Shown: positions 7,363 through 50,021 of the stretch, piece by piece
Layout: the number at the start of each line of letters is the position of its first letter
How positions within the stretch are numbered: position 1 is the stretch's first letter
Assembly: GCF_003315205.1 (NCBI RefSeq)
Contig: NZ_QNRR01000007.1
Location: forward strand, 124,001 to 188,000
Direction: 5' to 3'
DNA length: 64,000 nucleotides
Source: Roseimicrobium gellanilyticum
GTDB taxonomy: Bacteria > Verrucomicrobiota > Verrucomicrobiia > Verrucomicrobiales > Verrucomicrobiaceae
Notes under the pieces: model-generated
Told to the model about the DNA's origin: nothing
The model's input: the letters and a program-made list of their open reading frames with translations, nothing else
Databases searched by the model: none
Position numbers and translations under genes: made by a program

Positions 7363-7376
7363 ATAGCGGTGCTCTC

Positions 7377-7829
7377 CTACTTGCCGCTAGCTCCTGTCAG
7401 CCAATCCAAAGATCTTTTTTGAATCTTGAGCCTGGCATTGCCCCGAACTTTCCCATTGGAATATACTAAGACGTAGCAGCCATCTCTGTCGGTAGCGTCC
7501 TCAAAGCAAAGAATACTGAAGGTGTTGCCGTCATCCTCAAGAACAAGGTCGCCCAAGTTGTCTGAAGGATGAATTCTGTCTCCAGGTTGGACCATGGATC
7601 CAAGTTCTACCGTGCGGAGGAGGTTTTGCTGCCAGTCCCAGGACGTTGGACGATTGGCGAAATTTCCTCTCATTGAGACAACGCGGAGATGGTTGCCGGC
7701 AAGCGTTTTTCTCAAGGCATTCTTAACATCTTCGCTTGTGGAGAAGTTGGCCTTCCAAGGAAACGCAAGAAGCATAAGTATGCCTATCACTAACGCCATT
7801 GCACGCGGCGTGGACAGCCTCTTATTCAT
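7377..7829 (-). CDS. Hypothetical exported or membrane-anchored protein, 150 residues
   Basis: The protein starts with a positively charged segment and a hydrophobic stretch (MALVIGILMLLAFPW, about 11-25), so it is probably anchored or secreted. The remainder is soluble and mostly beta (SILCFEDATDRDGCYVLVYS; NARLKIQKRS), with two Cys that could form a disulfide. No family recognised. It is convergent with the cyclase (14 bp between stops) and ends a leftward stretch. Coding pattern and a clean start at an ATG support it as real, but function is unknown. Confidence 0.6.
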   Translation of the reverse strand: MNKRLSTPRAMALVIGILMLLAFPWKANFSTSEDVKNALRKTLAGNHLRVVSMRGNFANRPTSWDWQQNLLRTVELGSMVQPGDRIHPSDNLGDLVLEDDGNTFSILCFEDATDRDGCYVLVYSNGKVRGNARLKIQKRSLDWLTGASGK

Positions 7830-7886
7830 CTCGAAATCAGGTCGCTGTAAGCGCTAAAATACAACCGTCCCGAATGGACGCCAGTC

Positions 7887-11908: not shown

Positions 11909-12630
11909 TTACTCAGGGAGATGGAAGATTCGGAGGTGCCATCGGAGACCACGCGGCCATCCTTCATGCGAATGGTGCGTCCTGCCATTTCGGCGATGGA
12001 GGGATCATGCGTCACCAACGTGAGCGTCACTTTGCGCTCCGAGTGCAGCTTCATGAGCAGCTCGAGGATTTGCTTGGCGTTCTCGCTATCGAGGTTGCCC
12101 GTGGGTTCATCAGCGAGCACGACCGAGGGACCATTGGCCAGGCCGCGGGCGATGGCGACGCGCTGACGTTCACCGCCAGAAAGCTCAGAAGGGAAATGCG
12201 TGAGGCGGTGGCCGAGGCCCACGGAGGTGAGCAGTTCCTTCGCGCGATCGGTGCGCTGAGCCACGGTAAGCCCGCCTTCAAACATGGGAATCTGCACATT
12301 CTCCAGTACCGTAAAGGTGGGCAGCAGATGGAAGGCCTGGAACACAAAACCGATGTCATGTGACCGGTAGTGTGAAGCGTCCTTCATGTCCGGAATCGAC
12401 TTGCCGCGGAACGTGAGGCTGCCTTCCGTGGGCGTCACAAAGGAGCCCAGCAACTGTAGCAGCGTACTCTTGCCGCAACCGCTCGGGCCGGTGATGGCTA
12501 CAAACTCACCCTCCCTGATTTGCAGATCCACGCCGCGCAGGGCGAGAACGTGGCCTCCGTCATAGCTTTTTTTCAGGCCCTTGGCCTCAAAGACGATGTT
12601 GTTGGAGCCGTCCGGCGATGATGCGGGCAT
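11905..12630 (-). CDS. ABC transporter ATP-binding protein, LolD/MacB type
   Basis: The 241 residues contain all nucleotide-binding motifs: Walker A GPSGCGKST at 48-56, Q-loop in the GFVFQAFHLLPTFTVLENV segment (the TVLENV hallmark of the LolD/MacB group), signature LSGGERQRVAIARGL near 150-164, Walker B VVLADEPTGNLD near 168-179, and the H-loop His in TLVTHDP. It pairs with the permease, whose start overlaps its stop by 4 bp. The homodimer would drive the FtsX-type permease. A LolA-like gene 70 bp upstream suggests one functional set. Confidence 0.93.
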   Translation of the reverse strand: MPASSPDGSNNIVFEAKGLKKSYDGGHVLALRGVDLQIREGEFVAITGPSGCGKSTLLQLLGSFVTPTEGSLTFRGKSIPDMKDASHYRSHDIGFVFQAFHLLPTFTVLENVQIPMFEGGLTVAQRTDRAKELLTSVGLGHRLTHFPSELSGGERQRVAIARGLANGPSVVLADEPTGNLDSENAKQILELLMKLHSERKVTLTLVTHDPSIAEMAGRTIRMKDGRVVSDGTSESSISLSK

Positions 12631-12700
12631 GGAGCAAACTTATGTGGGAGAGATGGAGGGAAACAGGGAAGAGAATGTGACCACCCGGGGCCGGGTGTGT

Positions 12701-13480
12701 TCAGTCTCCACCGCGTGGAGCGCTGACATTTTTCAGGCCTTCGGGTGAAAAATCAGCATCCGTGTAGCTCACCCCTCGCTTGATGCGGGAGCCGTCCAAT
12801 TCGGTGACGGTGGAGCCACGGCGTGCGCTGAGGTTGGCGGGGATGTGCTTGCCGTCATTCTGGACCACATCGGTGGTATCGATGCGCACCACGACCTCAC
12901 CAGAGGACGAGTACTTCTCCACGCGCATGGGCACCATGCGGCGCAGGTCAATCCATGTGCGCACCTTTGCGTAGGAACCCTTGCCGCCTTTGGACTCCAG
13001 GATGTGGCACTCCACCTTGTTGATGGTCTCGGTGCCGGCGAAAGCCTGGTTGTCCCAGGCAAAGAAGTTCTGTACCACATCCTCATAGGTGAGAGCACTG
13101 CCGAAGAGCGGCTGCTTCATCTGCGAGGACTCGATGGTCGTCAGCTTGTCGGGAGCAGTGAAGCTGGCTCCGCCACCACTGCTGCGCAGCAGCACGCCAT
13201 TGCCCTTCTGTTCCTTGGGAAACAGGATCTGATACACCACATCCGTGGAGGAGGCGGTCTTTCGGGACTTGATTTGCACCTGGAGGGAGGTGCCGCCGGT
13301 GTCCATCTTCAGTCGGATGAAGGTATTCCCATCCTGCTGCTGGGCGCTGAGCCTGGAGGCAAGCTCCTTGGCCGTGATGCCACCTTCCTGGGCACTGGCG
13401 GCTGGTGAAATCATTGCCGCGGCGGCGATGGCGGCGCCAAAAAAGACGGACCGGACGGGCGAGAAGAAGCTGGCTTTCAT
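12701..13480 (-). CDS. LolA-like outer-membrane lipoprotein-sorting protein
   Basis: I chose the ATG at 13480 because a clean signal peptide then leads (RSVFFGAAIAAAAMISPAASA); an upstream in-frame codon at 13555 would add 25 atypical residues. The mature part is a beta-rich domain of the LolA/LppX/VioE type: YQILFPKEQKG, VLLRSSGGG, QPLFGSALTYEDVVQNFFAWD (the S-LTYEDV segment typical of the outer-membrane lipoprotein-sorting family), VECHILESKG, RTWIDLRRMVPMRVEKYSSSGEVVV and GVSYTDADFSPEG at the end. Members carry hydrophobic molecules in the periplasm. Placed upstream of an LolD-type ATPase and LolCE-type permease. Cargo unknown. Confidence 0.82.
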   Translation of the reverse strand: MKASFFSPVRSVFFGAAIAAAAMISPAASAQEGGITAKELASRLSAQQQDGNTFIRLKMDTGGTSLQVQIKSRKTASSTDVVYQILFPKEQKGNGVLLRSSGGGASFTAPDKLTTIESSQMKQPLFGSALTYEDVVQNFFAWDNQAFAGTETINKVECHILESKGGKGSYAKVRTWIDLRRMVPMRVEKYSSSGEVVVRIDTTDVVQNDGKHIPANLSARRGSTVTELDGSRIKRGVSYTDADFSPEGLKNVSAPRGGD

Positions 13481-13636
13481 GCAGATAACTTTGTGGTCGG
13501 CTGACTGGGAATCCTCGACGGGGGCGCAAATCGTGCAACTTGAATTGATTAGCACGCCGCCGCCCCTGCTGACGAAATCGGCACCGGAACCCTTCAGGCA
13601 GGGCTCCGGTATCGTGGAAGGAGTGCGCGGTTTGGT

Positions 13637-14347
13637 TCAATCATCGTCATCGTCGTCGTCAGACTTGGTGGTGGTCGTGGTGGTTGTTTGTCGAATCACC
13701 GGTGCAGGTGACACCGCGGCCGCGGGTCTTGCGACAATCACCCGCGAAGCCACCAGTTCGTCGCCCTCGCGCACGTACTGCACGGTCACCGGCGCCCCGG
13801 GGGCGATTTGCCCCACCGCGATGGGAGTACCAGCATCATCCACATACGTGGTGCTTCCCGTCACCGCGTAGGTGAGCGGTTCGGCGCTTTCTGAGCGGAC
13901 AATCAATCGCGCACCCGGCGTGAAGTTGGTAATCACACCTCCGGCAGTGGTGGAGGCGGCTACGACCTTGCGTTCAGTCACTACAGGCGTGGATACCGCG
14001 ACGGGCGTGCTCACACTCTGCCGGACGACCACACGTGAGGCCAGCATGCGGCTGCCATCACGCACGTAGTGCACCGTGATGGGCATGCCGGAAGTCACCT
14101 TCTCGGCCAGCACGGGCGCGCCGGTTTCATCGATGAAGGTGGTTCTTTCTGTCAGGGCATAGCGAACGGGTGCGGAGCTCGATTCTTCACGCACGATGAT
14201 GGCTTCACCGCCGGGGACGTAGTCGGTGATGATGCCGCTGCCGGTGGTGGTTTCTGCGATGACGGTTTGTGCCGGGGCGATGTTGCTCCAACTAAAAAAC
14301 GTGGCCACGCTGAGAGCGCAGGCGATGGCTGACCAATGAGTTTTCAT
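13637..14347 (-). CDS. Exported two-repeat protein with poly-aspartate C-terminus
   Basis: The ATG at 14347 gives a signal peptide (KTHWSAIACALSVATFFSW...APAQ) and has AAGG-like bases (GAAAGG) upstream. The mature chain contains two copies of a roughly 75-residue module (about 32-108 and 117-195): each runs ITDYVPGG/ITNFTPGA, then a strand pair with an acidic turn, YALTERTTFIDETGAPV/YAVTGSTTYVDDAGTPI, and a VHYVRDGSRMLASRVVV/VQYVREGDELVASRVIV ending. The C-terminus is a run of Thr followed by Lys-Ser and seven Asp, the type of tail that could bind Ca2+ or a basic surface. No named family recognised. It is next to the LolA-like gene but 156 bp upstream of it. Confidence 0.7.
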   Translation of the reverse strand: MKTHWSAIACALSVATFFSWSNIAPAQTVIAETTTGSGIITDYVPGGEAIIVREESSSAPVRYALTERTTFIDETGAPVLAEKVTSGMPITVHYVRDGSRMLASRVVVRQSVSTPVAVSTPVVTERKVVAASTTAGGVITNFTPGARLIVRSESAEPLTYAVTGSTTYVDDAGTPIAVGQIAPGAPVTVQYVREGDELVASRVIVARPAAAVSPAPVIRQTTTTTTTKSDDDDDDD

Positions 14348-14648
14348 GGGGCCTTTCGGTGGGTTTGAGGGTGGTTTTAGCAAGCCCGTGCCCTGCAACC
14401 GCTGGCAGCAACAGGAGCCGCGGCGGTGCAAAGGCATCAGGCTTACTCCTCAGAATCGCCTTTGCGGAAAGCAGTGGCTGGAACCGCGCGGGAGTCCGTC
14501 GAGTGAGGAAGGGCTTTTTGGCATTCCTGCTTACGGCTGCATTTCACGTGGAGCAGTCCAAGTGTTGCGCAGTTCCGCCGCGAGCACAAAAAATGGGGAC
14601 AAGAATGTCCCCACCCCTTGAGAAGCTGTAGCTCTCAATGTGCGCAGT
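14348..14648. other. Intergenic region between poly-Asp protein gene and desaturase gene
   Basis: 301 bp without a gene. It holds the start region of the leftward poly-Asp protein gene (right of 14348) and, at 14588-14613, the terminator of the desaturase/PKS transcript. The reading frames that cross it are Arg/Pro-rich and start at unsupported codons, so I call none. Confidence 0.5.
14588..14613 (-). terminator. Rho-independent terminator of the desaturase/C-domain/PKS operon
   Basis: On the minus strand a perfect 8 bp stem (TGGGGACA, arms 14606-14613 and 14594-14601) with a 4-base loop is followed by six T. It lies 36 bp after the desaturase stop. Confidence 0.85.
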
Positions 14649-15647
14649 CTATTTCGCCGCCAGAGAAGTCTGTGCGCCCTTCAAGCCACGCCACTGCGCG
14701 CCCACTTTCGGGTCATACAAGCAGGTGACGAGATGTCCGATGGCGTGCGAGTAACTGCGGAACGGAGCCAGTTCCTCGTCATTGGTGGGATACAAATCCT
14801 TCTGGTAGCCGGGCAACTCCGCATGGGGGAGGCCGGCCCGCTGGTGGTGCACTCCATGGAAGGGCTCATGCAGCAGGGTGAAGGAAACGAGCTTTCCGGT
14901 CCAAGTGTCCGCGATGATGCTGCGGGTGGCGCTGCGAATGGTGGAGCCGGTCAGGCCCACATGTTCCACGTACTTGCGCCAGCTCTGGAGATTACCTGCA
15001 ATGAAGCCGGGGATGAAATACATCCACAGCCAGTATTTCCACCCTCCTGTGAGAGCTGCCGCAGTGAGCATCATGGCATGGAAGGCGACGATGCCAAACA
15101 GCTCCATCCACACGCGGCGACGCACCTTCTTGCTGCGGATCGGCGAGTTCTTCCTCAGGAAGGTCCTCAGGAACATGGCGGGCGTGTGGAAGAGCCCGAA
15201 GAACAATTCCGTGAACGCCATCAGTCGGCGGAACCAGCGGGGAGACTTGGGATCGTTGAAGGGCCAGAGCTCTTCATCGCGCTCAAGGCCCAGGTGCGCA
15301 TGGTGTGTCTGGTGCGAAGCGCGATAGAGCGTGAAGCTCATCAGGCTGAGGAAGCCGATGAACACACCATCAAGGTCATTGAGAAGACGGCTCTTGCGCA
15401 GCATGCCGTGAGACGCCTCATGGAAGCCGATGAGGTTCCCGTGCATCAGGTGGCTGGCGATGAGGGCCAGCGGTACCACGAGCCAGTAGTTGTTGTGATA
15501 GAGAGCCGCGAACAGCCCGCCCAAGGTCAAGGCCAGCATACCCACCATGATGGGGAACGCGGCACGGCTCACCCAGTGGGGTTCGTGTGGCTCGAAAAGG
15601 GGATTTTCAGCAGGGGCTGGTGCGGGGGCTTGAGTCGTGGCTTCCAT
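14649..15647 (-). CDS. Membrane fatty acid desaturase (three-His-box family)
   Basis: A 332-residue di-iron membrane oxygenase. The histidine boxes are complete: HEASH (76-80), HQTHH (112-116) and HGVHH (264-268), with an extra conserved-type His in YVEHVGL (229). Hydrophobic helices occur near 30-50, 55-68, 96-108, 185-200 and 203-220, the usual placement on either side of the boxes. It is the last gene of the PKS operon, 21 bp after the condensation-domain gene, and ends at a strong terminator. It probably introduces a double bond (or hydroxyl group) into the PKS-derived acyl chain. A role in general membrane lipids is possible, but the operon structure favours tailoring. Confidence 0.9.
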   Translation of the reverse strand: MEATTQAPAPAPAENPLFEPHEPHWVSRAAFPIMVGMLALTLGGLFAALYHNNYWLVVPLALIASHLMHGNLIGFHEASHGMLRKSRLLNDLDGVFIGFLSLMSFTLYRASHQTHHAHLGLERDEELWPFNDPKSPRWFRRLMAFTELFFGLFHTPAMFLRTFLRKNSPIRSKKVRRRVWMELFGIVAFHAMMLTAAALTGGWKYWLWMYFIPGFIAGNLQSWRKYVEHVGLTGSTIRSATRSIIADTWTGKLVSFTLLHEPFHGVHHQRAGLPHAELPGYQKDLYPTNDEELAPFRSYSHAIGHLVTCLYDPKVGAQWRGLKGAQTSLAAK

Positions 15648-15668
15648 TGCTGCTTCAGTCAGGACTGA

Positions 15669-17015
15669 CTAGGATTTGAAGTTGGCAATGCGGTCCTCTG
15701 GTGAGCGACAGGCTTCCGCGAGCACATTCTGGTACAGAGTGTTGAGGCTTTCAACCTCGGCATGAGTGAACAACGAGGCGCGTGAGAGCCATACGATCTC
15801 CAGTGTCTCGTTCTCCTCAGTTACTTCGCATCCCAGGTCAAATCTTGCTGTACCCGTCGAGCGCATACGCAGTTTTACCGACATGCCCGGAAGATTGACA
15901 TCGGGCACCGGGTGATTTTGCAATGCGAAGCGCACGTCAAAAATTGGATTGTGCCCTGATGCAGGTTTGTCCTGCATTGCAGCTGCGAGTTCCGCGAACG
16001 GCATGAAGTTGGCAAACGAGTCCATGGTGGACTCATGCACTTCGCGGAGGGCATCGACGAAACGCTGATCACCTTTCACCTGACCGCGCAGTGGCACCAC
16101 GCCGGCCACGTAGCCCATGGTTTCCTTCACTCCGGCACGGTTGCGATTCGCGAAGGGGGTGCCCACGGTGACGTCAGCCACCTTGGTCCACTTGTTCAGA
16201 GTGATTTGGAAAACGGTCAGCAGGGCGCTGAAGAGCGTGGCGTGCGTCTTCTTCACCACTTCGCGCACGGCGCTGGTGAGATCTGCAGGAATGTGTGTCA
16301 CCCACCGTTGCAGCGGTCCCGTGTGGGACGGCGAGGCGGGAGGGCTCCACAAACGGGGAGCGCCTTCAAGCTTCGGCTTCCAGAAGGAGGCACAGCGCTC
16401 GACTTCAGCAGGTGTCCAGAAGGCGCGCTCCGCAGCATCCCACGCCCCATAGGTCATGGGCACGGGAGGCATGGGCTCGGAGAGGCCCATGAGTTCCTGA
16501 ACATAGGCGGCGCAGAGGTCCTGCACGAACACACCAAGGGTCCATCCGTCTGCAATGGAGTGGTGCACGGCAAACACCAGCAGGAGTTCATCTGCGCTGC
16601 GGCGGACCATCTCCACGCGGTAGAGCGGTCCGTGCATCAGGTCGAAGGGCTCCAGGACGATTTCCTGGATGATCTCCTCGATGGCCTCATCACTGCGCTG
16701 CTCAGGTGCCAGTTCGCGAACCTTGAAGTTCGCCTCGCCTGTGTTGCGCACCATTTGCAGCGTCCTGTCCTTGCCGGGCAGGAAGGTGATGCGCAGGGCG
16801 GACTGCCGCTCCACCACCCGTTGGATGCTGGCGCGGCACAGTTCCGCCGGCAAACTGCCGCGGACATAGATCACGCTGCAGATGTGATTCGCCGGATCGC
16901 CGACCGGTACCGGCGTGGTCTCCCACAACTCGCGCTGGGGGAAGGAGAGGGGCTGGAGGCGGATTTCTCCGCTCTCCAGCATCTGTTTGAGCCGGGCACG
17001 TTTTTCTCCTGACAT
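15669..17015 (-). CDS. Stand-alone condensation-domain (acyltransferase) protein
   Basis: NRPS condensation and PapA-type enzymes join an acyl group on a carrier protein to an amine or alcohol. Here the 448-residue protein is a complete free C-domain: QRELWE at the start (C1-like), the catalytic HHSIADG at 151-157 (His152 and Asp156 intact), and later VGTPFANRNRAGVKETMGYVAG (C5-like, with the N-R pair) and NPIFDVRFALQNHP. There is no adenylation or carrier domain. It lies between the PKS (24 bp upstream) and the desaturase. As the PKS lacks a thioesterase, this protein is the likely chain-release enzyme, forming an ester or amide. The acceptor is unknown. Confidence 0.88.
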   Translation of the reverse strand: MSGEKRARLKQMLESGEIRLQPLSFPQRELWETTPVPVGDPANHICSVIYVRGSLPAELCRASIQRVVERQSALRITFLPGKDRTLQMVRNTGEANFKVRELAPEQRSDEAIEEIIQEIVLEPFDLMHGPLYRVEMVRRSADELLLVFAVHHSIADGWTLGVFVQDLCAAYVQELMGLSEPMPPVPMTYGAWDAAERAFWTPAEVERCASFWKPKLEGAPRLWSPPASPSHTGPLQRWVTHIPADLTSAVREVVKKTHATLFSALLTVFQITLNKWTKVADVTVGTPFANRNRAGVKETMGYVAGVVPLRGQVKGDQRFVDALREVHESTMDSFANFMPFAELAAAMQDKPASGHNPIFDVRFALQNHPVPDVNLPGMSVKLRMRSTGTARFDLGCEVTEENETLEIVWLSRASLFTHAEVESLNTLYQNVLAEACRSPEDRIANFKS

Positions 17016-17039
17016 GCGGGAAGGAATCGAACGTCTGGC

Positions 17040-20000
17040 TTAGGCGGATGGCTTCGCGGCGGCAGTGGCTTCCGCGGTGTCATCGTCATCTCCGAGCAAC
17101 CGGTCAAGGTCGTCATCCGAGATGGCATCCAGGTCCACATCTTCCACAGGAGCTGCGACCGGCTCAGCCACGGGGGCTGCGGCAGGAGCAGCGGCACCGG
17201 CGGCCTTGGCACCACCCACGCGTTCTGCGATGAGGGTGACGATCTGGCCGATGGTACGGGCACGCATGAGGCTGGTGGGCGGCAGGGCCACACCGATGGC
17301 GCTTTCCAGCGAGTTCTCGATTTCCACGCCCATGAGCGAGTCAAGGCCGAGGTCCGTGAGCGGCTGGTCGTTGCGCAGGGTATCGGGCTTCACGCGAAGC
17401 ACGCCACCCACCACGTCACGAACGGCTTCACCGATGACGCCTTCTTTCTCCTCCGCCGAGGCGGATTCGATCTTGAGACGCCAGTCGCTGCCACCGCTGC
17501 TGGCTTCACCACCTTCAAGACCGGAGGCAAAGATGCGCTCAAGCAGCGGGTTCTCCTGCATGTTGCGGAAGGACTGGCGCCACTTGTTCCAATCCACGCG
17601 GATGGCCACGCCCTGGGCGGAGCCTGCGACGAGGAAGGACTCGAGGAGGGTGACCACTTCACCCGGAGTGAGGGCTGCCGTACCCTGGCGGGCCAGGAAC
17701 TCGGCGACCTTCTCATTGCGGGCCACGTAGCCTTCGCCACCCAGCACACCCCAGTTGATGGTAAGTGCGGGCAGGCCGAGCGAGCGGCGATGATGAGCGA
17801 GGGAGTCGAGGAAGGCATTGGCCGCCGCGTAGTTGGCCTGCGCGGGGTTGCCGAAGATGCTCGACACGGAGGAGAACATCACAAAGGCATCGAGGTCCAT
17901 CTTCGCGGTCGCCTCGTGCAGCAGCCAGCCGCCAAACGCCTTGGGCGTCAGCACGGACTGCATGCGCTCGCGGGTGAGCGCGGCGAGCGGGGCGTCGTCG
18001 ATGACCATCGCGAGGTGGAACACACCCTTGATGGGGGTCTCTTCGGAATGGCTTTCGCTGATGAGGCGCTGCACATCCGCGGGCGAGCCCACGTCTGCGG
18101 CGATGGCTTTGACCTCCACACCACGAGCGGTGAGGTCATCCACGAACTCCTGCGCGCCGGGCGACTTGATGCCGCTGCGGCTGCTGAGCGTGAGGTGACG
18201 GGCACCTGCTTGCACGAGCCACTCGGCGAGCACCTTGCCGAAGCCACCGAAGGCTCCGGTGATGACGTAGCGACCATTCGACTTCACGTCGAAGGCAGGC
18301 ACAGGGGCCTCGCCACGGCGCGGCACGAAGGCCTCGGGGAAGGAGACCACCACCTTGCCGATGTGCTTGCCCTGCGCCATCTGGCGGAAGGCGGCATCCA
18401 CGCGGCATGCGGGGAAGGAACGGAAGGGAAGGGGATGCAGCGCGCCCTTTTCGACGAGCTTGTTCACCTCACCGAGGAGCTGGCGGGCGAGTTCACCGTC
18501 ACCGGAGAACACGGCGTCCATGGCCACGACGTGGAAGGACGCGTTGCGGCGCAGCGGCCACAGCGGGATGCGTGAGTTCTGGTAGATGTCGCGCTTGCCG
18601 ATTTCGATGAAGCGACCGAACTCCGCAAGGCAGGCCATGCCCATGGGGATGGCTTCGGCCGCGAGGGCGTTGATCACGACGTCAACACCGCGGCGGTTGG
18701 TGAGGTTCATCACCGCATCCACGAAGTCGCCACGACGGGAGTCGATGACGTGGGCCACGCCCATCGTTTCAAGGAGCGCGCGCTTGGAGGCGCTGCCGGC
18801 GGTGGCGATGACCTTGCAACCGAGATGGTGCGCGATCTGAATCGCTGCCATACCGACGCCACCAGCACCAGCGTGGACCAGGATGGTCTCACCCTTGCGC
18901 ATGCGGGCCACATTCTTCAGCGAGTGCCAGGAGGTCATGAAGACCACCGGGATGGTGGCCGCCTCTTCGAAGGAGAGACCGGCAGGAATCGGCAGCACGT
19001 CGCAGCCACGGGCCAGCGTCTGCGTGGCCAGGCCGAACACGGCCAGACCATACGCACGGTCGCCCACCTTCACGTGCTTCACGTTCTCACCCACCTGGGT
19101 GATGATGCCGCCCACTTCGTCACCGAAGATGCGGGCATCCGGAGCTTCACCCGGATAGAGGGCGAGCGCCTTGAGCACGTCACGGAAGTTCATGCCAGCG
19201 GCACGAGTATCGATGACCACCTGATCTGCTTCGCAGGGCGGGTTTTCGAATGGCGTGAAGCGCAGCGTGTCGAGGTGACCACGTTCGCGGGATTCGAGAC
19301 GCAGCGGGATGGTCTTCTGCAGCCACTGCTCTTTGACAGGGCGGCCGCGATCAAGGCGCTGCACGTAGCGGGCTTCGCCACGGAAGGCGACTTCACGCTC
19401 CACATCGGTGCGCTTCAGTTCGCTGATGAGAAGGTCCACATCCGCGTCGGAGGCGACGGTCGGAAGGTCGATCGCCTTGCAGGTGATGTCGGGGTGTTCG
19501 TTGTTGAACACGCGCACCATGCCGATGAGGGGAGCCTGCACCACGGTGGTGGCGCTGTTGTCGCGACCAATCGGCTGGGCGCCGCGGGTCACGAGGTCGA
19601 AGCGGCTCTTCACGGCAGGACGCACGGCATCTTCCGCATGGGAGAGGTGCAGCAGCGCATCGGTGCCGGCGATGACTTCGTCGGCATTGCTGGGCTTGGC
19701 GGGTTCGTCGAGCGTCCAGAAGTACACGCTGCGCTCAGGCGCGGCATCCTTCGTGACGGTTTCGAGAAGCGTCTTCCAGTCTTCACCGGCTTCCGCACGG
19801 AGGGTGAATTTGTCACCGCTGGCGCTGTAGCTGTCGCCCTTGTAGGCGAGGCGCACGCGGGCACCGCCTTCGCGGAGCTTCGTAGCGAGCTTCTCAGCGA
19901 AGCCACCCTTGTCGGCGTAGAGCAGCCAGGAGGACTCCAGCGCGGCTTCTTCGGCGGGTGCTTCAGTCGTGGGGGCAGCGGCTTTCTCGGACGCCTTGCG

Positions 20001-23000
20001 ACCGAAGAGGAGGATCTGGCCTTCGCCACCACGTGGACCGGTGAGGCCGGCGAGGGAGGCGGTTTCGGCGTAGCCGGCGGACTTGATGACTTTCTCCCAC
20101 TGGGCGCGCTCGATGAGCGGCTGCTCGGGGCGAAGCTCGCGGTCGGCGAATCTCCACCAGCCGCTCGTGAGGCCGAAAGTGGACTCGGTCCACAGCATCG
20201 GAGAGCCCGTGTCCATGAAGATGAGGCTGCCGCCGGGGGCGAGCAGGTCATGCACATGGCGCAGGGACGCGGTGACATCGCTCACGGCGTGCACGCAGTT
20301 GGTGCCGATGACGAAGTCGTAGCTGCCGACGTCGAGGCCCTGCTCGGCAGGGGATTTCTCAAGGTCGAAGATCTTGCACTCCACCTCGGGGAATCCGGCC
20401 AGCTTCTGCATGGCGCCGGGGAAGAAGCCCGCGGAGATGTCCGTGAAGGTGTAGGTGTGCAGACCGCGCTCAAGGAGCGGGAGCAGGTAGGAGGCGAGAC
20501 CGCCGGTACCGGCGCCGATTTCCAGGATGCGGAGGCCACGGCCTTCGGGAAGGGCGTTGGAAGCTTCCTGAAGGGCAGCCGCAATGGCGGCGAGCCACTG
20601 GCTGGTGTAGAGGCCGTCACCGTAGAACTGGTCCAGGTGTTCGGCGCCCGCACCGGCGAAGAGCACCTGCACGGCTTCCTTCTCACCACGGAGGATGGGG
20701 CCGAGTTCGGCACACGTCGCGTGGTTGATCAGGCCTTCAGAGAGGTGACCGGGGTTGTTCTCGATGTACTTGCGAAGCGTGGGCGTCGCGTTGCTGGCTG
20801 CCTTCTTGAAGAGCGGCGTGGTCTTGTAGATCGCGCCTTCCTTCTGGATGAGACCGCGACGCTCCAAGCCCGTCATCAGGGCGCCGAAGACCGGCATGAG
20901 TGCCTCGTCGATCTTCAGCTTCTTGGCGTCGATGGTGCTCTTCACACCCATGCTCTGGAGACCACGGGCGAGGTTCGCGGCGGCGAGTTCGTCACCAGCG
21001 GCGAGTGCTTCTTCAAGCTTCTTCTTGCCACGTGCTTCGACGACCTGGTCAAGCGCGGCACCTGCGGCCTTCTGAAGCTGCGCCAGCGGAAGCGGGGCAC
21101 CCACGGTGCTCGGTTCGGCGCTGGAGGGATTGGTACGTTCCCAGGCGACCTGATAAACAAGGTCGCGCTGGCCACCAGGCGTGCCGGAGCGGCGGGCGCC
21201 GGCCACAGCGATGGCGCGGAAGCCGTCCACGAGCACGCAGGGGTTGCCTGCTTCATCGTAGAGGCCGAGTTCGCCTTCGAGGTAGTCGTCGTTGAAGCCC
21301 TGAACGCTGGCGCGGACCTGGCTGGAGGCGCCGGGCGAGCGGAGGAAGAGGATGCGCTGGAAGCGCACCGGGAGCTTGAGCTTGGCCTTGCGGCTTTCCA
21401 CCGTCTTCGCGCCTGCGGAGAATACGTGCAGGGCGGCGTCCATGAGGACGGGGTGGAGCTGGTATTCACCAGCGCGCTTGGCGGACTCCTCGGTGAGGGC
21501 CACCTTGCCATGGGACACGCCACCGGCGGCGGCGAGTTCCTTCACGCCACGGAACTCTTCGCCGTAGCGAAGGCCCATGTCGCTCATGTGCTGGTAGAAT
21601 CCGGTCAGGTCCTGCGCTGGCAGGTCCTTCGGCTTCACGTCTTCCCACTTGGTGTGCGCGAAGGTGGTTTCCGTGCGCTCACCGCGCATGGAACCGACCA
21701 CGTGCACCGACCAGGAGGCGGCGTTTTCAAACTTACTCTGGATGGAGAATGTGCGCTCGCCGGTTTCGTAGGTGATTTCGATCTGCAGACCCGCGGTGGA
21801 GTCCGGAAGGATCAGCGGCTTGCGGATTTCGAAGTCTTCCACCACGAACGGGCGGCCTTCGAAGTACTGGGCGCCTGCTTCGAGGATGAGCTCGATGAAG
21901 CCGGCGGCCGGGAAGATGACGTGGCTCTCGACCTTGTGATCCTTGAGGTACGCCATGTGGCGGTTGTCGAGGCGTGCCACCCAGGTCGGGGTGGCACGGG
22001 GCAGGCGGATGTCCAGCATGCCGCGTCCACCGTTCATGAGACGGCCATCGCGCCAGTCGGGGGACTCACTCCACCAGCGGGCCTTATCCCACGCGTACGA
22101 GGGGAGGGAAAGCTGGCGGCGGGAGGGCGTCATCGCCGCGAAGTCGAGCTCGACCGCAGCGCGGTGGAGGCCCATCACGGTGTCGAGGATGGTCTCATGC
22201 TCCTTCTCACGACGGACGGAGGAGAGCACGGGAGCCTTGATGTTCCGGGCGCCGAGGCATTCCTGGATGTTGCGGGCCAGGGCGGGGTGCGAGCTGATTT
22301 CCAGCCACACGTCCACGCCGAAGTCAGCCATCGCGTCCACGGCAGGTGCGAAGCGCACCGATTGGCGGATGCCTTTGCCCCAGTGGGTGGCGTCGCAGGA
22401 GTCACCGGCGCAGCGGTCACCCGTGACGGTGCTGAAGAAGGGAACGGTGTCCGGCAGCGGCTTGAGCTCGGCGAGCGCCTTCTCGAGCGCTTCCGAAGCG
22501 GGCTGCATGAGCGGGTGGTGGAAGGGATGGTCCACCTTCACGAGGCGGGCGAAGACGCCCTGCTCTTCCAGCTCATTCATCATCTTGGTCAGTGAAGCCG
22601 CGTTGCCCGCGAGGGTCAGCGACTTCGGACCGTTGAAGGCCGCGATGGTCACGGTGCGGTCATGACGAGCGATGAGCGCGCGAGCGTCTTCCTCGGTGAT
22701 GCCCACGGCGAGCATGGTGCCGTCACCCTTGGCGCACTCTTCCATGAAGCGCGCACGCTGCACGATGATGCGGGCGCCGTCTTCCACACTGAAGATACCC
22801 GCCACACAGGCGGCGGCGATTTCACCGACGGAGTGACCCACGATGGCCGCAGGCTCCACACCCCAAGACTTCCAGAGGGCGCAAAGGGATACCTGCATCG
22901 CGAAGATGGCCGGCTGGCCCACTTCGGTGCGCATGACTTGGGAGTCTGCCTCGGACTTGGCGAGTTCTTCGAGAAGGCCAAAGCGAGCCCAGGGACGCAT

Positions 23001-24734
23001 GGCGGCGTCGCAGCGCTCCATCATCTGGCGGAACACAGGCTCGTACTTCATGAGCTCGCGGCCCATGCCCCACCACTGGGGACCCTGGCCGCTGAGCACG
23101 AAACCGACGCGGGGCGCGGTTTCCGGGCGAGGAGTGAAGACGCTCTGCAGCTTCGGTCCGGGATTGCCGGTGGCGAAGCCGTTGAGTTCTTCGATCAAGT
23201 CATTGATGGAATTCGCCACCACCGTGGCGCGGTACTGGTGGTGGTTGCGACGAGCACCCAGGGTGTAGGTCAGGTCGGGCAGGACAGGAGAGCTGCCGTT
23301 GGCATTTGCCTTGGAGGTGAGCCAGGCGCCGAGGCGTTCCGCCGTGCCACGCAAAGCTTCTTCGGAGCGTGCGGAAATCGTCACCGGCCAGGAGCGGCCT
23401 TCGGGGACTTCCAGGTACTCACGCTGGGTGGTGTGGGGAGCTTCCGCGAGGATGACGTGGGCATTCGCGCCACCGAAACCGAAGGAGTTCACACCCACCA
23501 TGCGGGGGCCTTCTGCCGGGGCAGGGAAGGCTTCCATGGAGGTCGGGATACGAAGCTTCAGTGCTTCGAAATCGATGTGCGGGCTCGGGTTTTCGAAGTG
23601 CAGGCTCGCGGGGATCTGCTTGTGCTTCAGCACGAGGAGGGCCTTGACGAGGCCAGCCACACCAGCGGCGGTTTCAAGGTGACCAAGATTGGTCTTCACT
23701 GAACCGATGGGCAGTGGCTGGTCGGCAGGGCGATCGACGCAAAGGGCATTGGCAAGAGCGGTCGCTTCGATGGGGTCACCGACGGCGGTGCCGGTGCCGT
23801 GGGCTTCCACGAAACCGATCTGCTTCGGATCAATGCCGGCGTCCTTGCAGGCGTCACGCACGAGGCGGGCCTGGGCTTCCGGGCTGGGAAGGGAGATGCC
23901 GTTCGTATGGCCGTCCTGGTTCAAGGACGTGCCGATGACGACCGCGTGGATGGGGTCGCCATCCTTGATGGCCTGCGAGAGGCGCTTCATGAGCACCACG
24001 CCGGCACCTTCGCCGCGCACGAAGCCATTGGCTTCAGCTGCGAAGGCCTTGCAGTGGCCATCCGGGGAGAGCATGCCCGCCTGGGAGAAGCCAATGAAGC
24101 CGCCAGGGGTGACCATGATGGTCACACCACCAGCCATGGCCACGTCGCCACGATTGGTCCAGATGTGCTCACATGCCGCATGCACTGCAGTCAGAGCGGA
24201 GGAGCAGGCGGTGTCCATCGCCACGCTCGGGCCGAGCAGGTTCAGGCTGTAAGAAATGCGGTTTGCCGCGATGCTGTGCGCACTTCCGGTGGGCGAGTGG
24301 GGACTGATGCCTGCTGAGTCCCAAGGCGTGCCCTGGATGATCTGATAGTCATTGTGGGACACCCCCATGAATACGGCGATGTCCGTGCCCTTTTCGAGGT
24401 CCAGCACGATGCCGGCGTCTTCAATCGCTTCCCAAGCCGTCTCCAAAAGCAGACGCTGCTGGGGGTCGATGTAGGGGGCTTCACGTGGAGAGATCCCGAA
24501 GAACTGGGGGTCGTACTGATCGAGGCCGTCGATAAATCCACCGCGCTTGGCAATAGATTTTCCAACCAGGCCGGGTTCCTCGTCGTAATACCGATCAGCA
24601 TTCCAACGATCGGCAGGAACCTCCACCACAGCTTCACGGCCCTCGGCCAGTAGTTTCCAGTAGGACTCTACGTCATCCACTTTTCCTGGAAAACGGCAAC
24701 CGACTCCGATGATGGCAATTCCTTCTTTGGTCAT
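17040..24734 (-). CDS. Type I reducing polyketide synthase, KS-AT-DH-MT-ER-KR-ACP
   Basis: One 2564-residue module. KS (about 4-430): Cys177 in DTACSSA, EAHGTGT and KTNLGHLE histidines. AT (about 545-860): nucleophile GHSVGE near 634; HPFH in the specificity position suggests malonyl-CoA. DH (about 920-1200): HKVESHVIFP near 935 (Gly of HxxxGxxxxP replaced by Ser) and DAALH. MT (about 1400-1560): ILEIGAGTGG, so alpha-methylation is likely. ER (about 1830-2130): HAGAGGVGMAAIQIA. KR (about 2150-2340): GAFGGFGK and SSVSS...YAAAN. ACP: LGLDSLM near 2463. After it come an Ala/Pro linker and an acidic tail with DDLDRLL. There is no thioesterase or reductase domain. All reductive domains present implies a saturated, methylated chain, probably made iteratively like fungal highly reducing synthases or mycobacterial Mas. 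Confidence 0.95.
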   Translation of the reverse strand: MTKEGIAIIGVGCRFPGKVDDVESYWKLLAEGREAVVEVPADRWNADRYYDEEPGLVGKSIAKRGGFIDGLDQYDPQFFGISPREAPYIDPQQRLLLETAWEAIEDAGIVLDLEKGTDIAVFMGVSHNDYQIIQGTPWDSAGISPHSPTGSAHSIAANRISYSLNLLGPSVAMDTACSSALTAVHAACEHIWTNRGDVAMAGGVTIMVTPGGFIGFSQAGMLSPDGHCKAFAAEANGFVRGEGAGVVLMKRLSQAIKDGDPIHAVVIGTSLNQDGHTNGISLPSPEAQARLVRDACKDAGIDPKQIGFVEAHGTGTAVGDPIEATALANALCVDRPADQPLPIGSVKTNLGHLETAAGVAGLVKALLVLKHKQIPASLHFENPSPHIDFEALKLRIPTSMEAFPAPAEGPRMVGVNSFGFGGANAHVILAEAPHTTQREYLEVPEGRSWPVTISARSEEALRGTAERLGAWLTSKANANGSSPVLPDLTYTLGARRNHHQYRATVVANSINDLIEELNGFATGNPGPKLQSVFTPRPETAPRVGFVLSGQGPQWWGMGRELMKYEPVFRQMMERCDAAMRPWARFGLLEELAKSEADSQVMRTEVGQPAIFAMQVSLCALWKSWGVEPAAIVGHSVGEIAAACVAGIFSVEDGARIIVQRARFMEECAKGDGTMLAVGITEEDARALIARHDRTVTIAAFNGPKSLTLAGNAASLTKMMNELEEQGVFARLVKVDHPFHHPLMQPASEALEKALAELKPLPDTVPFFSTVTGDRCAGDSCDATHWGKGIRQSVRFAPAVDAMADFGVDVWLEISSHPALARNIQECLGARNIKAPVLSSVRREKEHETILDTVMGLHRAAVELDFAAMTPSRRQLSLPSYAWDKARWWSESPDWRDGRLMNGGRGMLDIRLPRATPTWVARLDNRHMAYLKDHKVESHVIFPAAGFIELILEAGAQYFEGRPFVVEDFEIRKPLILPDSTAGLQIEITYETGERTFSIQSKFENAASWSVHVVGSMRGERTETTFAHTKWEDVKPKDLPAQDLTGFYQHMSDMGLRYGEEFRGVKELAAAGGVSHGKVALTEESAKRAGEYQLHPVLMDAALHVFSAGAKTVESRKAKLKLPVRFQRILFLRSPGASSQVRASVQGFNDDYLEGELGLYDEAGNPCVLVDGFRAIAVAGARRSGTPGGQRDLVYQVAWERTNPSSAEPSTVGAPLPLAQLQKAAGAALDQVVEARGKKKLEEALAAGDELAAANLARGLQSMGVKSTIDAKKLKIDEALMPVFGALMTGLERRGLIQKEGAIYKTTPLFKKAASNATPTLRKYIENNPGHLSEGLINHATCAELGPILRGEKEAVQVLFAGAGAEHLDQFYGDGLYTSQWLAAIAAALQEASNALPEGRGLRILEIGAGTGGLASYLLPLLERGLHTYTFTDISAGFFPGAMQKLAGFPEVECKIFDLEKSPAEQGLDVGSYDFVIGTNCVHAVSDVTASLRHVHDLLAPGGSLIFMDTGSPMLWTESTFGLTSGWWRFADRELRPEQPLIERAQWEKVIKSAGYAETASLAGLTGPRGGEGQILLFGRKASEKAAAPTTEAPAEEAALESSWLLYADKGGFAEKLATKLREGGARVRLAYKGDSYSASGDKFTLRAEAGEDWKTLLETVTKDAAPERSVYFWTLDEPAKPSNADEVIAGTDALLHLSHAEDAVRPAVKSRFDLVTRGAQPIGRDNSATTVVQAPLIGMVRVFNNEHPDITCKAIDLPTVASDADVDLLISELKRTDVEREVAFRGEARYVQRLDRGRPVKEQWLQKTIPLRLESRERGHLDTLRFTPFENPPCEADQVVIDTRAAGMNFRDVLKALALYPGEAPDARIFGDEVGGIITQVGENVKHVKVGDRAYGLAVFGLATQTLARGCDVLPIPAGLSFEEAATIPVVFMTSWHSLKNVARMRKGETILVHAGAGGVGMAAIQIAHHLGCKVIATAGSASKRALLETMGVAHVIDSRRGDFVDAVMNLTNRRGVDVVINALAAEAIPMGMACLAEFGRFIEIGKRDIYQNSRIPLWPLRRNASFHVVAMDAVFSGDGELARQLLGEVNKLVEKGALHPLPFRSFPACRVDAAFRQMAQGKHIGKVVVSFPEAFVPRRGEAPVPAFDVKSNGRYVITGAFGGFGKVLAEWLVQAGARHLTLSSRSGIKSPGAQEFVDDLTARGVEVKAIAADVGSPADVQRLISESHSEETPIKGVFHLAMVIDDAPLAALTRERMQSVLTPKAFGGWLLHEATAKMDLDAFVMFSSVSSIFGNPAQANYAAANAFLDSLAHHRRSLGLPALTINWGVLGGEGYVARNEKVAEFLARQGTAALTPGEVVTLLESFLVAGSAQGVAIRVDWNKWRQSFRNMQENPLLERIFASGLEGGEASSGGSDWRLKIESASAEEKEGVIGEAVRDVVGGVLRVKPDTLRNDQPLTDLGLDSLMGVEIENSLESAIGVALPPTSLMRARTIGQIVTLIAERVGGAKAAGAAAPAAAPVAEPVAAPVEDVDLDAISDDDLDRLLGDDDDTAEATAAAKPSA

Positions 24735-24968
24735 AGGCTAGCAATAAATTCCGAAACAGGGGCAGCTTTATGTGGTTTGCCCCGCACCACAAGTTATTTG
24801 CAAGGGCAACCTGATGGAAGCAAAAAGCACGATCTGCAAGTAGGCCCTTGGGGCACTGAGTATCGACTCAGGACCACTGTCCGCGTGAACTGTGCCGCGA
24901 CTAATTTTGCTTAATCTTTTTGCCAGAAGACGCATCCTCACCACACTCGCTGGGGCGAACTATAATTT
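24735..24968. promoter_or_regulatory. Divergent promoter region between PKS operon and asparagine synthetase
   Basis: This 234 bp gap must hold the promoters of both the leftward PKS operon and the rightward asnB-like gene. It is locally AT-richer than its surroundings. A TATAAT sits at 24961-24966, only 2 bp before the asnB start, too close to serve as the -10 box of a normal leader. No riboswitch or operator palindrome stands out. Confidence 0.45.
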
Positions 24969-26942
24969 ATGTGTGGCATTGCAGGCATGCTGGATTTGGC
25001 CGGGGAACGGGACGCGCCGGTGGACGTCGTTCGAAGCATGGCGCGTGCCATCTTCCATCGAGGCCCTGATGAAGAAGGCTTTCTTTGGCGGCCAGGGCTT
25101 GGAATGGCCTCTCGAAGGCTGAGCATCGTGGGTCTCGCAGATGGCCAACAGCCCATGTCCAATGAGGACCGCAGCGTTCATGTGGTCTTCAATGGGGAGC
25201 TGTTTGATCACCTTGAGAAGCGCGCCGAGCTCCGGGATCGGGGCCATGTACTGACCACTCATTGCGACACGGAAATCATTCCCCATATGTGGGAAGACCA
25301 CCGGGAGGGCATGTTTGAGCGATTGCGGGGACAGTTTGCCATCGCCCTGTGGGACGAGAAAAAGAAGCAACTCACCATGGGGCGTGATCGCTTTGGCATT
25401 GCGCCCCTCTACTGGAGCCGGCAGGGAGATTGGCTGCTCTTCGCATCGGAAATCAAGGGGCTGCTGGCCTCCGGCATGGTGCCTGCCCGGCCCGACCGGA
25501 GGGGCATTGATCATGTCTTCACCTTCTCAGCGATGCCGGGGCCGGTGACTTGCTTCGAAGGGGTGAACTGCCTCCCGCCTGCGCGATATCTGCAGATCAC
25601 GAAGGGCAATCGTGGCGATAATGTCACCATCCAGGAGCGAGCCTACTGGAAGATGGATTTCCCCGATGCGGGACAGGAAAGGGACGGCGATGCCAAGACT
25701 CTGGTGGATGAGTTTGAGCAGCTCATGCTCAAGGCTGTGGAGAAACGCCTGCGCGCGGATGTGCCGGTTGGCTCCTATCTCTCAGGCGGAGTGGATTCCA
25801 GCATGATTCTGGCGCTCGCCAGCCACGTCAAAGGCAAGGACATTCATACCTACACCGTGCAGGTGGATGAACCTGGTTTGGACGAACTGGATGCAGCCAG
25901 CATGGTAGCCAAGCACATTGGGACGGCGCCTCCCATCGTTCAGAAGTTTCGCACAGAGGACGCTCTCAGCACCTATCCCAGCCTCATCCGGGCGGCTGAG
26001 TGCCCGGTCATTGACACCTCCTGCGCATCGCTCCTGCAACTGGCTCACAAGGTCCACTCCAACGGACAAAAGGTCGTGCTGACGGGGGAGGGAGCAGACG
26101 AGTGGCTCATTGGTTACCCATGGTACAAGATCTCCAAGGCACTTGGTTTCCTTGACAAGATTCCAGGCGTGGAACTCAGCGACAATGTCCGTCGCGCCTT
26201 CTTGAGAATGAGCAATGTGCCGAATTTCCCAGCGCAGGTTCGGAGGGATATCGAAAAAGTCATCGGGGGCACCAATCCCTGGATTGATTCCTACGGAGTG
26301 CTTTGTGTTTCCAAACTGCGCTTTTACAGCCCGGACATGCTGGCACAGATGGACGCCACGGCACCGTGGGCCATGCTGGACATGGATCTCGATCGAGCCA
26401 CCCAATGGCATCCATTGAATCGAGGGGTCTGGATGGCGGGAAGGGTGAACCTCGCGGGCCACCTGCTCCAGGCCAAGGGTGACCGCGTGGCCATGCACTC
26501 CTCCGTGGAGGTGCGCTATCCTTTTCTGGATGAGGATGTCTTCGATTTCACGGCGAAACTCCATCCTCGCTGGAAGTTGCGTGGGTTCCGCGACAAGCAT
26601 CTGCTCCGTCTGCTGGCGGAGCGTTGGGTGCCACCGTTCGTGTATAAGCGGGGGAAGGTCATCTTCCGTGCTCCGCTGGACAGCTTTCACCTTGAGCCGG
26701 AACCCGCGTTTGTCGCTCAACTCCTCAGCGAAGAGTCGCTGCAGCGCACCGGCTACTTTGATGCCCAAGCCGTGCGGCATTGGAGGAAGGCCTATACCAG
26801 CATGCGAGCAGGGTCCCTGCCGCGCCTGTCGATCGAGATGGGTTTGGCGGCTGTCGTGGCGACGCAACTCTGGCACCATCTCTACATTGATGGCTCCCTG
26901 TGCGAGTTGCCCACGGTCGGAAGTGCTCCGGCCGCTACCTGA
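24969..26942 (+). CDS. asnB: Asparagine synthetase (glutamine-hydrolysing)
   Basis: AsnB converts aspartate, glutamine and ATP to asparagine and glutamate; relatives amidate other carboxylates in antibiotic pathways. The start is fixed by the Ntn nucleophile: MCGIAGML, Cys2. The glutaminase domain (about 1-210) has RGPDEEGF, RLSIVGLADGQQPM and FNGELFDH. The synthetase domain has the PP-loop SGGVDSS near 271-277, LTGEGADEW and EVRYPFLDEDVFDF. At 657 residues it is of standard length for the long form. It is divergent from the PKS operon by 234 bp; shared regulation is likely, so it may amidate the PKS product, but a plain amino-acid role is the alternative. No clear Shine-Dalgarno precedes the start. 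Confidence 0.92.
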   Translation: MCGIAGMLDLAGERDAPVDVVRSMARAIFHRGPDEEGFLWRPGLGMASRRLSIVGLADGQQPMSNEDRSVHVVFNGELFDHLEKRAELRDRGHVLTTHCDTEIIPHMWEDHREGMFERLRGQFAIALWDEKKKQLTMGRDRFGIAPLYWSRQGDWLLFASEIKGLLASGMVPARPDRRGIDHVFTFSAMPGPVTCFEGVNCLPPARYLQITKGNRGDNVTIQERAYWKMDFPDAGQERDGDAKTLVDEFEQLMLKAVEKRLRADVPVGSYLSGGVDSSMILALASHVKGKDIHTYTVQVDEPGLDELDAASMVAKHIGTAPPIVQKFRTEDALSTYPSLIRAAECPVIDTSCASLLQLAHKVHSNGQKVVLTGEGADEWLIGYPWYKISKALGFLDKIPGVELSDNVRRAFLRMSNVPNFPAQVRRDIEKVIGGTNPWIDSYGVLCVSKLRFYSPDMLAQMDATAPWAMLDMDLDRATQWHPLNRGVWMAGRVNLAGHLLQAKGDRVAMHSSVEVRYPFLDEDVFDFTAKLHPRWKLRGFRDKHLLRLLAERWVPPFVYKRGKVIFRAPLDSFHLEPEPAFVAQLLSEESLQRTGYFDAQAVRHWRKAYTSMRAGSLPRLSIEMGLAAVVATQLWHHLYIDGSLCELPTVGSAPAAT

Positions 26943-27043: not shown

Positions 27044-27835
27044 TTACTTCAGGCTTGCGAGAAGTTCCTTCGCGGCAGCTTTCGCGTCCGCATCGTCTTT
27101 CTCCACGCTGGGCATCGCAATGCCTTTCTCGAGATACTTGCAGGCTTCGGAGGTGCGGCCCACCTGGGCGTACACGCGACCGAGTTCTACGTAGTGCATG
27201 AGGCGGCCTGGATTGAGCTTCACTGCCTTCTCAAGGCAGTTCACGGCCTCATCATTGGAGGCTTCCGGCAGCTTGTCATAGATCATGGAGGCGAGCATTT
27301 TCTTCACGCCGCCCACATTTGCCACATTCCGGTGCCAGCGGCCCAGAATATGCCAGGCCAGATCATTGGAGGAATTCAGCTTCACGGCCTTCTCCGCACC
27401 CGCTTTGATGGCCTTGGAGCAGGCCACCTGTTCCTTGTTGCTCATGAAGGGGACCATCTTTCCGTAGCTGATGGCGCAGGAGAGCTGGGCATCCGAGTTC
27501 TTGGGATCGGCGGCTGCAGCACGCTTTCCGTACTGCAGAGCAATGTTCCCGAGCTTCAGCTTTTGGTCGTTGGAGGAAGCGTCCGCCATGAGGTGCCGGT
27601 ACTGCCGGGCGATCCGCACCAGCACATCAGCATTGTCCGGCTGGAGTTTCTCGAGTTCCAGATAGATCTGGAGGGCTTCCTTGGCCTCGAGCTTTACATC
27701 AAGGGCGTCTGCTTTTTGGAGCAGCTCTTCCGGGGATTGGGCCTGGACGCTGACGCTGGCTATACACAGCGCCGCAGCGGAGAGGAGGGCCTTGGCCGAA
27801 GCACGAAGGCGGAGGGGTTTCGGGCAAAACATCAT
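27044..27835 (-). CDS. Exported TPR-repeat protein
   Basis: A 263-residue protein with a signal peptide (about 10-33, AKALLSAAALCIASVSVQAQ). The mature part is made of TPR-like helix pairs: ALQIYLELEKLQPDNADVLV, ALQYGKRAAAADPKNSDAQL, AIKAGAEKAVKLNSSNDLAW, AVNCLEKAVKLNPGRLMHYV and ACKYLEKGIAMP. Similar proteins of bacteria resemble the eukaryotic RMDN (regulator of microtubule dynamics) type of TPR fold. Its start overlaps the amidase stop (ATGA), so the two are co-translated. It probably acts as a periplasmic scaffold; partner unknown. Confidence 0.85.
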   Translation of the reverse strand: MMFCPKPLRLRASAKALLSAAALCIASVSVQAQSPEELLQKADALDVKLEAKEALQIYLELEKLQPDNADVLVRIARQYRHLMADASSNDQKLKLGNIALQYGKRAAAADPKNSDAQLSCAISYGKMVPFMSNKEQVACSKAIKAGAEKAVKLNSSNDLAWHILGRWHRNVANVGGVKKMLASMIYDKLPEASNDEAVNCLEKAVKLNPGRLMHYVELGRVYAQVGRTSEACKYLEKGIAMPSVEKDDADAKAAAKELLASLK

Positions 27836-47531: not shown

Positions 47532-47578
47532 TCATCAAACATGGCGGTGATGCGGGCCAGCACAAGTCTGCCTTCGCA

Positions 47579-49896: not shown

Positions 49897-50021
49897 GATC
49901 TGGTGTAGCCCAGCGTCACACTCTCTGGCAAACGATTAGTCACCATGCATTTGGCCTGAGGCACGTGCGGGAGTCCGGGCCGGGGCGCATCCATGCTTGC
50001 GCCGTCCGCTGGGTGGTCTAG

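Follow-up and report, generated by a model that had tools for sequence, protein, structure and literature searches.

We examine a 64,000-nt stretch of the Roseimicrobium gellanilyticum genome (the window), in which a type I polyketide synthase (PKS) gene is closely followed by genes for a stand-alone condensation (C) protein of the nonribosomal peptide synthetase (NRPS) type and a desaturase/hydroxylase-like membrane di-iron enzyme (Des), with gaps of 24 nt (PKS-C) and 21 nt (C-Des). The original prediction for this DNA had described these three genes as tightly linked, together with a divergent AsnB-type glutamine amidotransferase gene, and all four are indeed present, with intact motifs (Table 1). 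It took them as a functional unit, a set that would be unfamiliar in a verrucomicrobium. We redraw that unit: the genes for an ATP-binding cassette (ABC) ATPase, a permease, and a LolA-like carrier (10793-13555) belong to it as well, extending it beyond 14649, AsnB is an optional member, and the whole, rather than being peculiar to one strain, is a conserved operon found in many Verrucomicrobiota (62 loci). These export genes, a methyltransferase-like gene (9660-10766), and a docking-like tail on the PKS had been absent from the earlier description.

Orthologues of the C protein were sought in relatives and in a scan of about 85,000 prokaryotic species, each represented by a single genome. In this genome scan, they occur only in Verrucomicrobiota, with contig titles that include Verrucomicrobium, Prosthecobacter, and Brevifollis; the scan patterns were built from verrucomicrobial sequences, and distant relatives may exist outside the phylum. 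A clear score gap separates the orthologues from ordinary NRPS C domains. Within the order, the C protein is found in 43 of 289 sampled genomes, and within the class, in 17 of 384. The matches listed in a plasmid search were C domains of the NRPS-like sort, with identities of about 30%.

Neighborhoods were read for 62 non-redundant verrucomicrobial loci. The PKS gene lies beside the C gene in every one of the 45 loci with enough upstream DNA, while in the 49 loci whose sequence extends 5.5 kb or more downstream of the C gene, we observe Des (47/49), the LolD-like ATPase (47/49), the FtsX/MacB-type permease (47/49), and the LolA-like carrier (44/49). Where the genes adjoin, the median gaps, with starts called mechanically, are 3 nt (PKS-C), 2 nt (C-Des), 3 nt (Des-ATPase), -4 nt (ATPase-permease), and 13 nt (permease-LolA). 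The conserved unit therefore consists of six genes in the order PKS, C, Des, LolD-like ATPase, FtsX/MacB-type permease, and LolA-like carrier. Given its conservation in as many as 62 loci and the purifying selection on it (dN/dS of 0.03-0.12 relative to the congener for the parts tested), this arrangement is far more than chance. Pairwise distances between the operon genes correlate at 0.36-0.74, which fits joint inheritance but is not decisive.

Table 1. Features of the locus; strand and positions are given in window coordinates.
Feature	Position	Strand	Evidence
Type I PKS, 2564 aa	17040..24734	-	Pfam domains, active-site motifs, tail motif
Stand-alone NRPS-type C protein, 448 aa, proposed chain release	15669..17015	-	Pfam, invariant motif, AF2 model
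Desaturase/hydroxylase-like membrane di-iron enzyme (Des)	14649..15647	-	Pfam, His boxes
Possible intrinsic terminator 3' of Des: GGGGACATTCTTGTCCCC, then T run	14596..14617	-	Pattern scan
h266, small exported repeat protein	13637..14437	-	Orthologues at same place in 4 other loci
LolA-like periplasmic lipid/lipoprotein carrier	12701..13555	-	PF17131, PDB profile matches, AF2 model
LolD-like ABC ATPase	11905..12630	-	TIGR02211 match below cut-off
FtsX/MacB-type permease, 371 aa	10793..11908	-	MacB_PCD + FtsX Pfam, PDB relatives
Methyltransferase-like protein	9660..10766	-	Weak Methyltransf_23 match below cut-off; conserved family A3
Alpha/beta hydrolase, beyond the methyltransferase-like gene	7887-9587		
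AsnB-type glutamine amidotransferase, divergent from PKS, optional partner	24969..26942	+	TIGR01536
TPR protein, signal peptide-like start, optional neighbor	27044..27835	-	Locus counts

As originally predicted, the PKS contains ketosynthase (KS), acyltransferase (AT), dehydratase (DH), C-methyltransferase (MT), enoylreductase (ER), ketoreductase (KR), and acyl carrier protein (ACP) domains, each above its Pfam cut-off, and no thioesterase (TE) domain appears in the Pfam domain search. The active sites of KS, AT, DH, ER, KR, and ACP are intact within this one protein, as in a fully reducing type I PKS, and the KS, AT, MT, ER, KR, and ACP motifs are kept across up to 39 orthologues. The DH motif reads HxxxSxxxxP, with variation among orthologues at the usual Gly position. 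The AT motif, HPFH in the window and HPFH or HPYH across orthologues, is one that we take to be malonyl-like, whereas methylmalonyl ATs carry YASH at this position; the methyl branches should therefore derive from S-adenosylmethionine (SAM) through the SAM-dependent MT domain. The ER carries NFRDV and the KR carries IDD at the LDD position, which presumably correspond to 2R methyl groups and B-type reduction. Overall, these motifs suggest a fully reducing, C-methylating, and probably iterative PKS, with iterative working suggested by the single module and the absence of a loading module. The closest solved relative of the KS-AT-DH part is Mas. A Mas-type PKS would combine a methylmalonyl-specific AT with the absence of an MT domain; the enzyme here instead has HPFH and an MT domain. 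No further type I PKS was seen in the genome, where the remaining ketoacyl-synthase matches are open frames of 431-493 aa, and genes of the phosphopantetheinyl-transferase family are present elsewhere. When compared to its congener counterpart (L027:3782-11473), the PKS gene has a synonymous divergence (dS) of 0.22, with 10-29% of four-fold sites different, against dS values of 0.46-0.97 for flanking genes, and its G+C content at third codon positions is not unusual despite this low dS. Recombination between species or selection at synonymous sites could account for the pattern.

The PKS ends in an Ala/Pro-rich linker followed by an acidic, docking-like C-terminal motif, VDLDAISDDDLDRLL. A motif approximating V-D-L-D-A-[LI]-S-D-[DE]-[DE]-[LI]-D-x-L-L is present in all 38 PKSs with a readable tail, while the preceding linker is variable and often Ala/Pro-rich. 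The tail resembles short linear motifs (SLiMs), which are bound by β-hairpin docking domains (PMC9113145); this likeness is a visual judgment, and the pattern itself comes from the same 38 tails. By this resemblance, the tail would serve docking, with the C protein as its most likely partner.

The C protein is a single Condensation domain (215.5 bits against a Pfam cut-off of 30.6) with the motif HHSIADG, in which H151, H152, D156, and G157 are invariant in 16 orthologues. Its AlphaFold2 (AF2) model has a predicted local distance difference test score (pLDDT) of 84.9 and superimposes on the TomB C domain with a VIA-align Z of 39.7 and a root-mean-square deviation (rmsd) of 2.2 over 413 aligned residues, such that both the fold and the HHxxxDG motif are those of an NRPS condensation domain. 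Its best matches are carrier-dependent elongation C domains, namely TycC (209 bits) and Txo2 (205 bits). As an elongation-type NRPS C domain, it is neither a PapA-type acyltransferase, scoring 19.9 bits with the PapA5 model, whose cut-off is 396, nor a LovD-type esterase. The protein also departs from fatty acid amide C domains of the OaaC type in having HHxxxDG rather than DHxxxDS, and no linked adenylation (A) domain was found. Only about 21 residues precede the C domain, with a conserved N-terminal helix and strand in the model. At one locus (L111, G781:C10), the C gene contains a single in-frame TGA, which could reflect a pseudogene or a sequencing error.

Des matches FA_desaturase (PF00487) with 111.6 bits against a cut-off of 29.7 and carries the His boxes HEASH, HQTHH, and HGVHH, whose histidines are invariant in 16 orthologues. 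No real match was found among PDB sequences. These features are consistent with a membrane di-iron desaturase or hydroxylase, between which the sequence cannot distinguish.

Among the export genes, the LolA-like protein scores 72.4 bits against the PF17131 cut-off of 30, has profile matches to PDB 3bk5 and 9tp6, and yields an AF2 model that aligns to LolA3 (9tp6) with a VIA-align Z of 21.1 and an rmsd of 2.9 over 217 residues. The confidence of this model is moderate (pLDDT of 60.7), and the match and the fold together place the protein in the LolA superfamily. Its gene probably starts near 13480, ahead of a signal peptide. The solved relatives of the permease are MacB (102.5 bits), LolC (61.9 bits), and LolF (41.7 bits), and its gene overlaps that of the ATPase by 4 nt in the window. 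A paralogous two-gene ABC-FtsX unit (L132, G000:C6:19000-34000, 6267-8087) lies in an unrelated place in the genome, adjoining PEPCK (phosphoenolpyruvate carboxykinase) and queuosine genes; its products share 56% and 41% identity with the operon pair. Because this second pair and further LolA-like genes exist elsewhere in the genome, the copy in the operon looks dedicated.

We interpret the locus, with a probability of roughly 0.6, as an operon that makes and exports a PKS-derived envelope lipid of the Verrucomicrobiota with SAM-derived methyl branches, which the C protein would release and a Lol-like route would transport. This reading builds on the identified enzymes, their intact motifs, the order of the genes, and their conservation, from which we infer iteration and a putative substrate, acceptor, docking partner, order of steps, and destination. 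The PKS would iteratively build a reduced chain from malonyl units, SAM supplying the methyl branches, and since it is without a TE, the acyl chain would stay bound to the ACP. The acidic tail behind the ACP would recruit a partner, most likely the C protein, which is proposed to release the chain in trans by condensing it with an amine or alcohol, either free or bound to a carrier. Des would then desaturate or hydroxylate the acyl chain, and AsnB, where present, may amidate a carboxylate on the acceptor or product. Finally, the LolD-like ATPase and MacB/LolC-type permease would lift the product out of the inner membrane and hand it over to the LolA-like carrier for passage to the outer membrane. 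In the original prediction, the C domain released the chain as a separate partner of the PKS, an idea that holds up insofar as a stand-alone C domain lies beside a TE-less PKS, whereas its analogies to Mas/PapA and LovF/LovD fit only loosely. Its predicted product, a methyl-branched and possibly unsaturated acyl ester or amide, is reasonable. A more specific form of our proposal, in which the Verrucomicrobiota have a phylum-specific Lol-type route that carries a polyketide lipid rather than lipoproteins, the operon both making the methyl-branched lipid with C-domain release and supplying its own LolD/permease/LolA-like transport to the outer membrane, we hold tentatively, at somewhat less than even odds.

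Several observations weigh against the envelope-lipid interpretation. The ATPase scores 243.1 bits with the LolD model (TIGR02211, cut-off of 307.75) and the permease 68.5 bits with the LolCE model (cut-off of 362.45); as both fall below the cut-offs for true Lol proteins, we call them Lol-like. MacB-like permeases export non-lipids too, and a LolB-like receptor was not identified. An N-terminal β-hairpin docking domain, the kind of domain that SLiMs bind, is absent from the C proteins in both the orthologue alignment and the model, which makes the docking partner of the PKS tail a guess. Three loci (L051, L059, and L063) keep the PKS and C genes with neither Des nor export genes nearby, while L104 is without the export genes and L114 is without Des. 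In the window genome itself, the synthesis and export genes are separated by an additional gene, h266, and by a possible terminator. The hairpin (14617-14596) is weak evidence, as the pattern scan gives 3 sites in the region versus 1.4 expected, and none was found after Des at the corresponding place in the congener. The PKS-C-Des transcript may thus stop after Des in the window genome, and because the hairpin is seen there and not in the congener, cotranscription of the synthesis and export genes is uncertain in this genome. The gene order in the window, with the LolA-like gene ahead of the ATPase and permease genes and h266 between it and Des, is common to the congener and the neighboring genus (L027-L030).

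In a different reading with unchanged chemistry, the product is a secreted small molecule (a signal, surfactant, or antibiotic) that a MacB-type pump exports to the medium, with the LolA-like protein acting only as a shuttle. MacB is the best solved relative of the permease, PKS/C/desaturase sets elsewhere yield diffusible products, and the patchy spread (43/289 sampled genomes in the order) fits secondary metabolism. We nonetheless consider secretion rather unlikely: MacB pumps require a membrane-fusion protein and a TolC-type protein, for which no linked gene is present, carriers of the LolA fold serve the outer membrane and have acyl chains as ligands, and gene order is strongly kept, the core genes of most loci not being interrupted by tailoring enzymes specific to a lineage.

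The elongation-type character of the C protein raises the further prospect of a lipopeptide, for which the C protein, instead of releasing the chain, would transfer it to an aminoacyl carrier belonging to an NRPS from another locus. Its best scores with carrier-dependent domains, its HHxxxDG motif in place of the DHxxxDS of OaaC-type domains acting on free amines, and the existence of other NRPS C domains in the genome all agree with this. However, no A or peptidyl carrier protein (PCP) domain lies near the operon among annotated neighbors, and in the search of relatives, many that bear the operon gave no other C-domain match, which together make a lipopeptide improbable. It is still harder to see the export genes as an adjoining lipoprotein-sorting unit with no part in handling the PKS product. 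The LolD/LolA similarity and the possible terminator between the gene groups in the window would suit such a unit, but linkage in 47/49 loci, near-zero gaps in relatives, and the presence in the genome of another ABC-FtsX pair and of more LolA-like genes, by which a housekeeping role is not needed, leave it very improbable.

AsnB and the TPR gene are linked but optional partners of the operon. AsnB scores 400 bits against the TIGR01536 equivalog cut-off of 267, with Cys2 and SGGVDSS intact, and it adjoins the PKS divergently in 30/45 loci. A close orthologue (at least 65%) is present in 13/19 operon-bearing versus 0/19 operon-lacking relatives, counts that are not corrected for kinship. A purely housekeeping AsnB is thus not clear-cut, as the protein passes the asparagine synthase cut-off, yet only relatives with the operon have a close orthologue of it. 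The linkage appears real but optional, and given its occurrence in only 30/45 loci, AsnB would have a tailoring or accessory role at best. The TPR gene is nearby in 23/45 loci and immediately upstream of the PKS in some genera. The methyltransferase-like gene is a frequent but not universal neighbor whose position varies in relatives, and its product has no PDB match; h266 has no Pfam or NCBIfam match. Neither a conserved acceptor-making gene nor an A/PCP domain was found near the operon among annotated neighbors. Accessory neighbors are lineage-specific (Ig-like surface protein, GH1, PLD, patatin, glycosyltransferase, and APP1), and searches of these genes with PHROGs and PADLOC gave nothing useful. 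In two loci (L121:4536-6119 and L122:13755-15362), an alpha/beta hydrolase gene, a 26% relative of the window hydrolase, lies between Des and the ATPase, a place occupied in another (L074:12421-17124) by a gene for a repetitive 1567-aa Ig-like/YDG surface protein. In L059, genes resembling an RND (resistance-nodulation-division) efflux pair follow the C gene. Elsewhere in the window, a second lipid-like group (46797-51314) comprises a FabF-type KS (48640-49896), a weaker KS/FabH-like match (47579-48712), a short-chain dehydrogenase/reductase (46797-47531), and a divergent AMP-binding enzyme (50022-51314), and may represent a cluster of the type II fatty-acid or aryl-polyene-like kind.

What appears new here is the combination of a PKS, a release C domain, and a Lol-like exporter in one tight, phylum-wide operon; the individual elements have precedents. 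Neither the operon nor this combination was described in the papers searched, and the main text of an essential-genome paper on V. spinosum makes no mention of such genes. The closest precedents are the stand-alone release C domains Bamb_5915 and OaaC, and LolA2/LolB2 beside flexirubin genes. OaaC joins ACP-bound acyl chains to free amines, giving fatty acid amides, and has the motif DHxxxDS and separate A and ACP proteins (PMC13142362), while Bamb_5915, from the enacyloxin system, works via a SLiM docking element (PMC9113145). As proposed here, a separate C-domain protein moves a carrier-bound acyl chain onto a small acceptor in both of these systems. The C protein of the operon differs in being without a β-hairpin docking domain, in having HHxxxDG where OaaC has DHxxxDS, and in lying nearer to elongation C domains, and the operon differs in having one iterative-type PKS and linked export genes.

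LovF/LovD and the fungal highly reducing PKSs share the KS-AT-DH-MT-ER-KR-ACP order and release by a separate enzyme. LovD has a different fold, whereas the release partner in the operon is an NRPS C domain. Among exporters, DevBCA of the heterocyst glycolipid system uses a membrane-fusion protein. This glycolipid is PKS-made and has DevBCA as its own ABC exporter, with HglB carrying a thioester reductase (PMC8064123). The likeness lies in the coupling of a PKS lipid to a dedicated ABC exporter. For the flexirubin locus of Flavobacterium, we know of no type I PKS or C protein. LolA2/LolB2 are encoded there with genes for a pigment lipid whose presumed location is the outer membrane, and their lipid role is suggested, not shown (PMC11885536). 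A LolA-like protein is likewise encoded alongside lipid-making genes in the operon, which differs in that no LolB is seen and the ATPase and permease lie within it.

In function, the system resembles Mas/PapA5 and the export of phthiocerol dimycocerosate (PDIM), in which a reducing PKS, a C-superfamily transferase, an ABC exporter, and a carrier of the LolA/LppX fold likewise serve a branched outer-envelope lipid. PDIM export in mycobacteria involves DrrABC, MmpL7, and LppX (PMC11539658). The operon PKS differs from Mas in its MT domain and malonyl-like AT motif, the C protein is not PapA-like, and export would proceed through a MacB/FtsX permease, with no MmpL in the operon. Little is known about the envelope lipids of Verrucomicrobiota, and the operon makes one of them directly accessible to genetics while offering a way to test for specialization of Lol-type machinery to non-protein lipids. 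If the more specific form of our proposal is correct, Verrucomicrobiota have a specialized envelope lipid like those of mycobacteria, arrived at by independent means.

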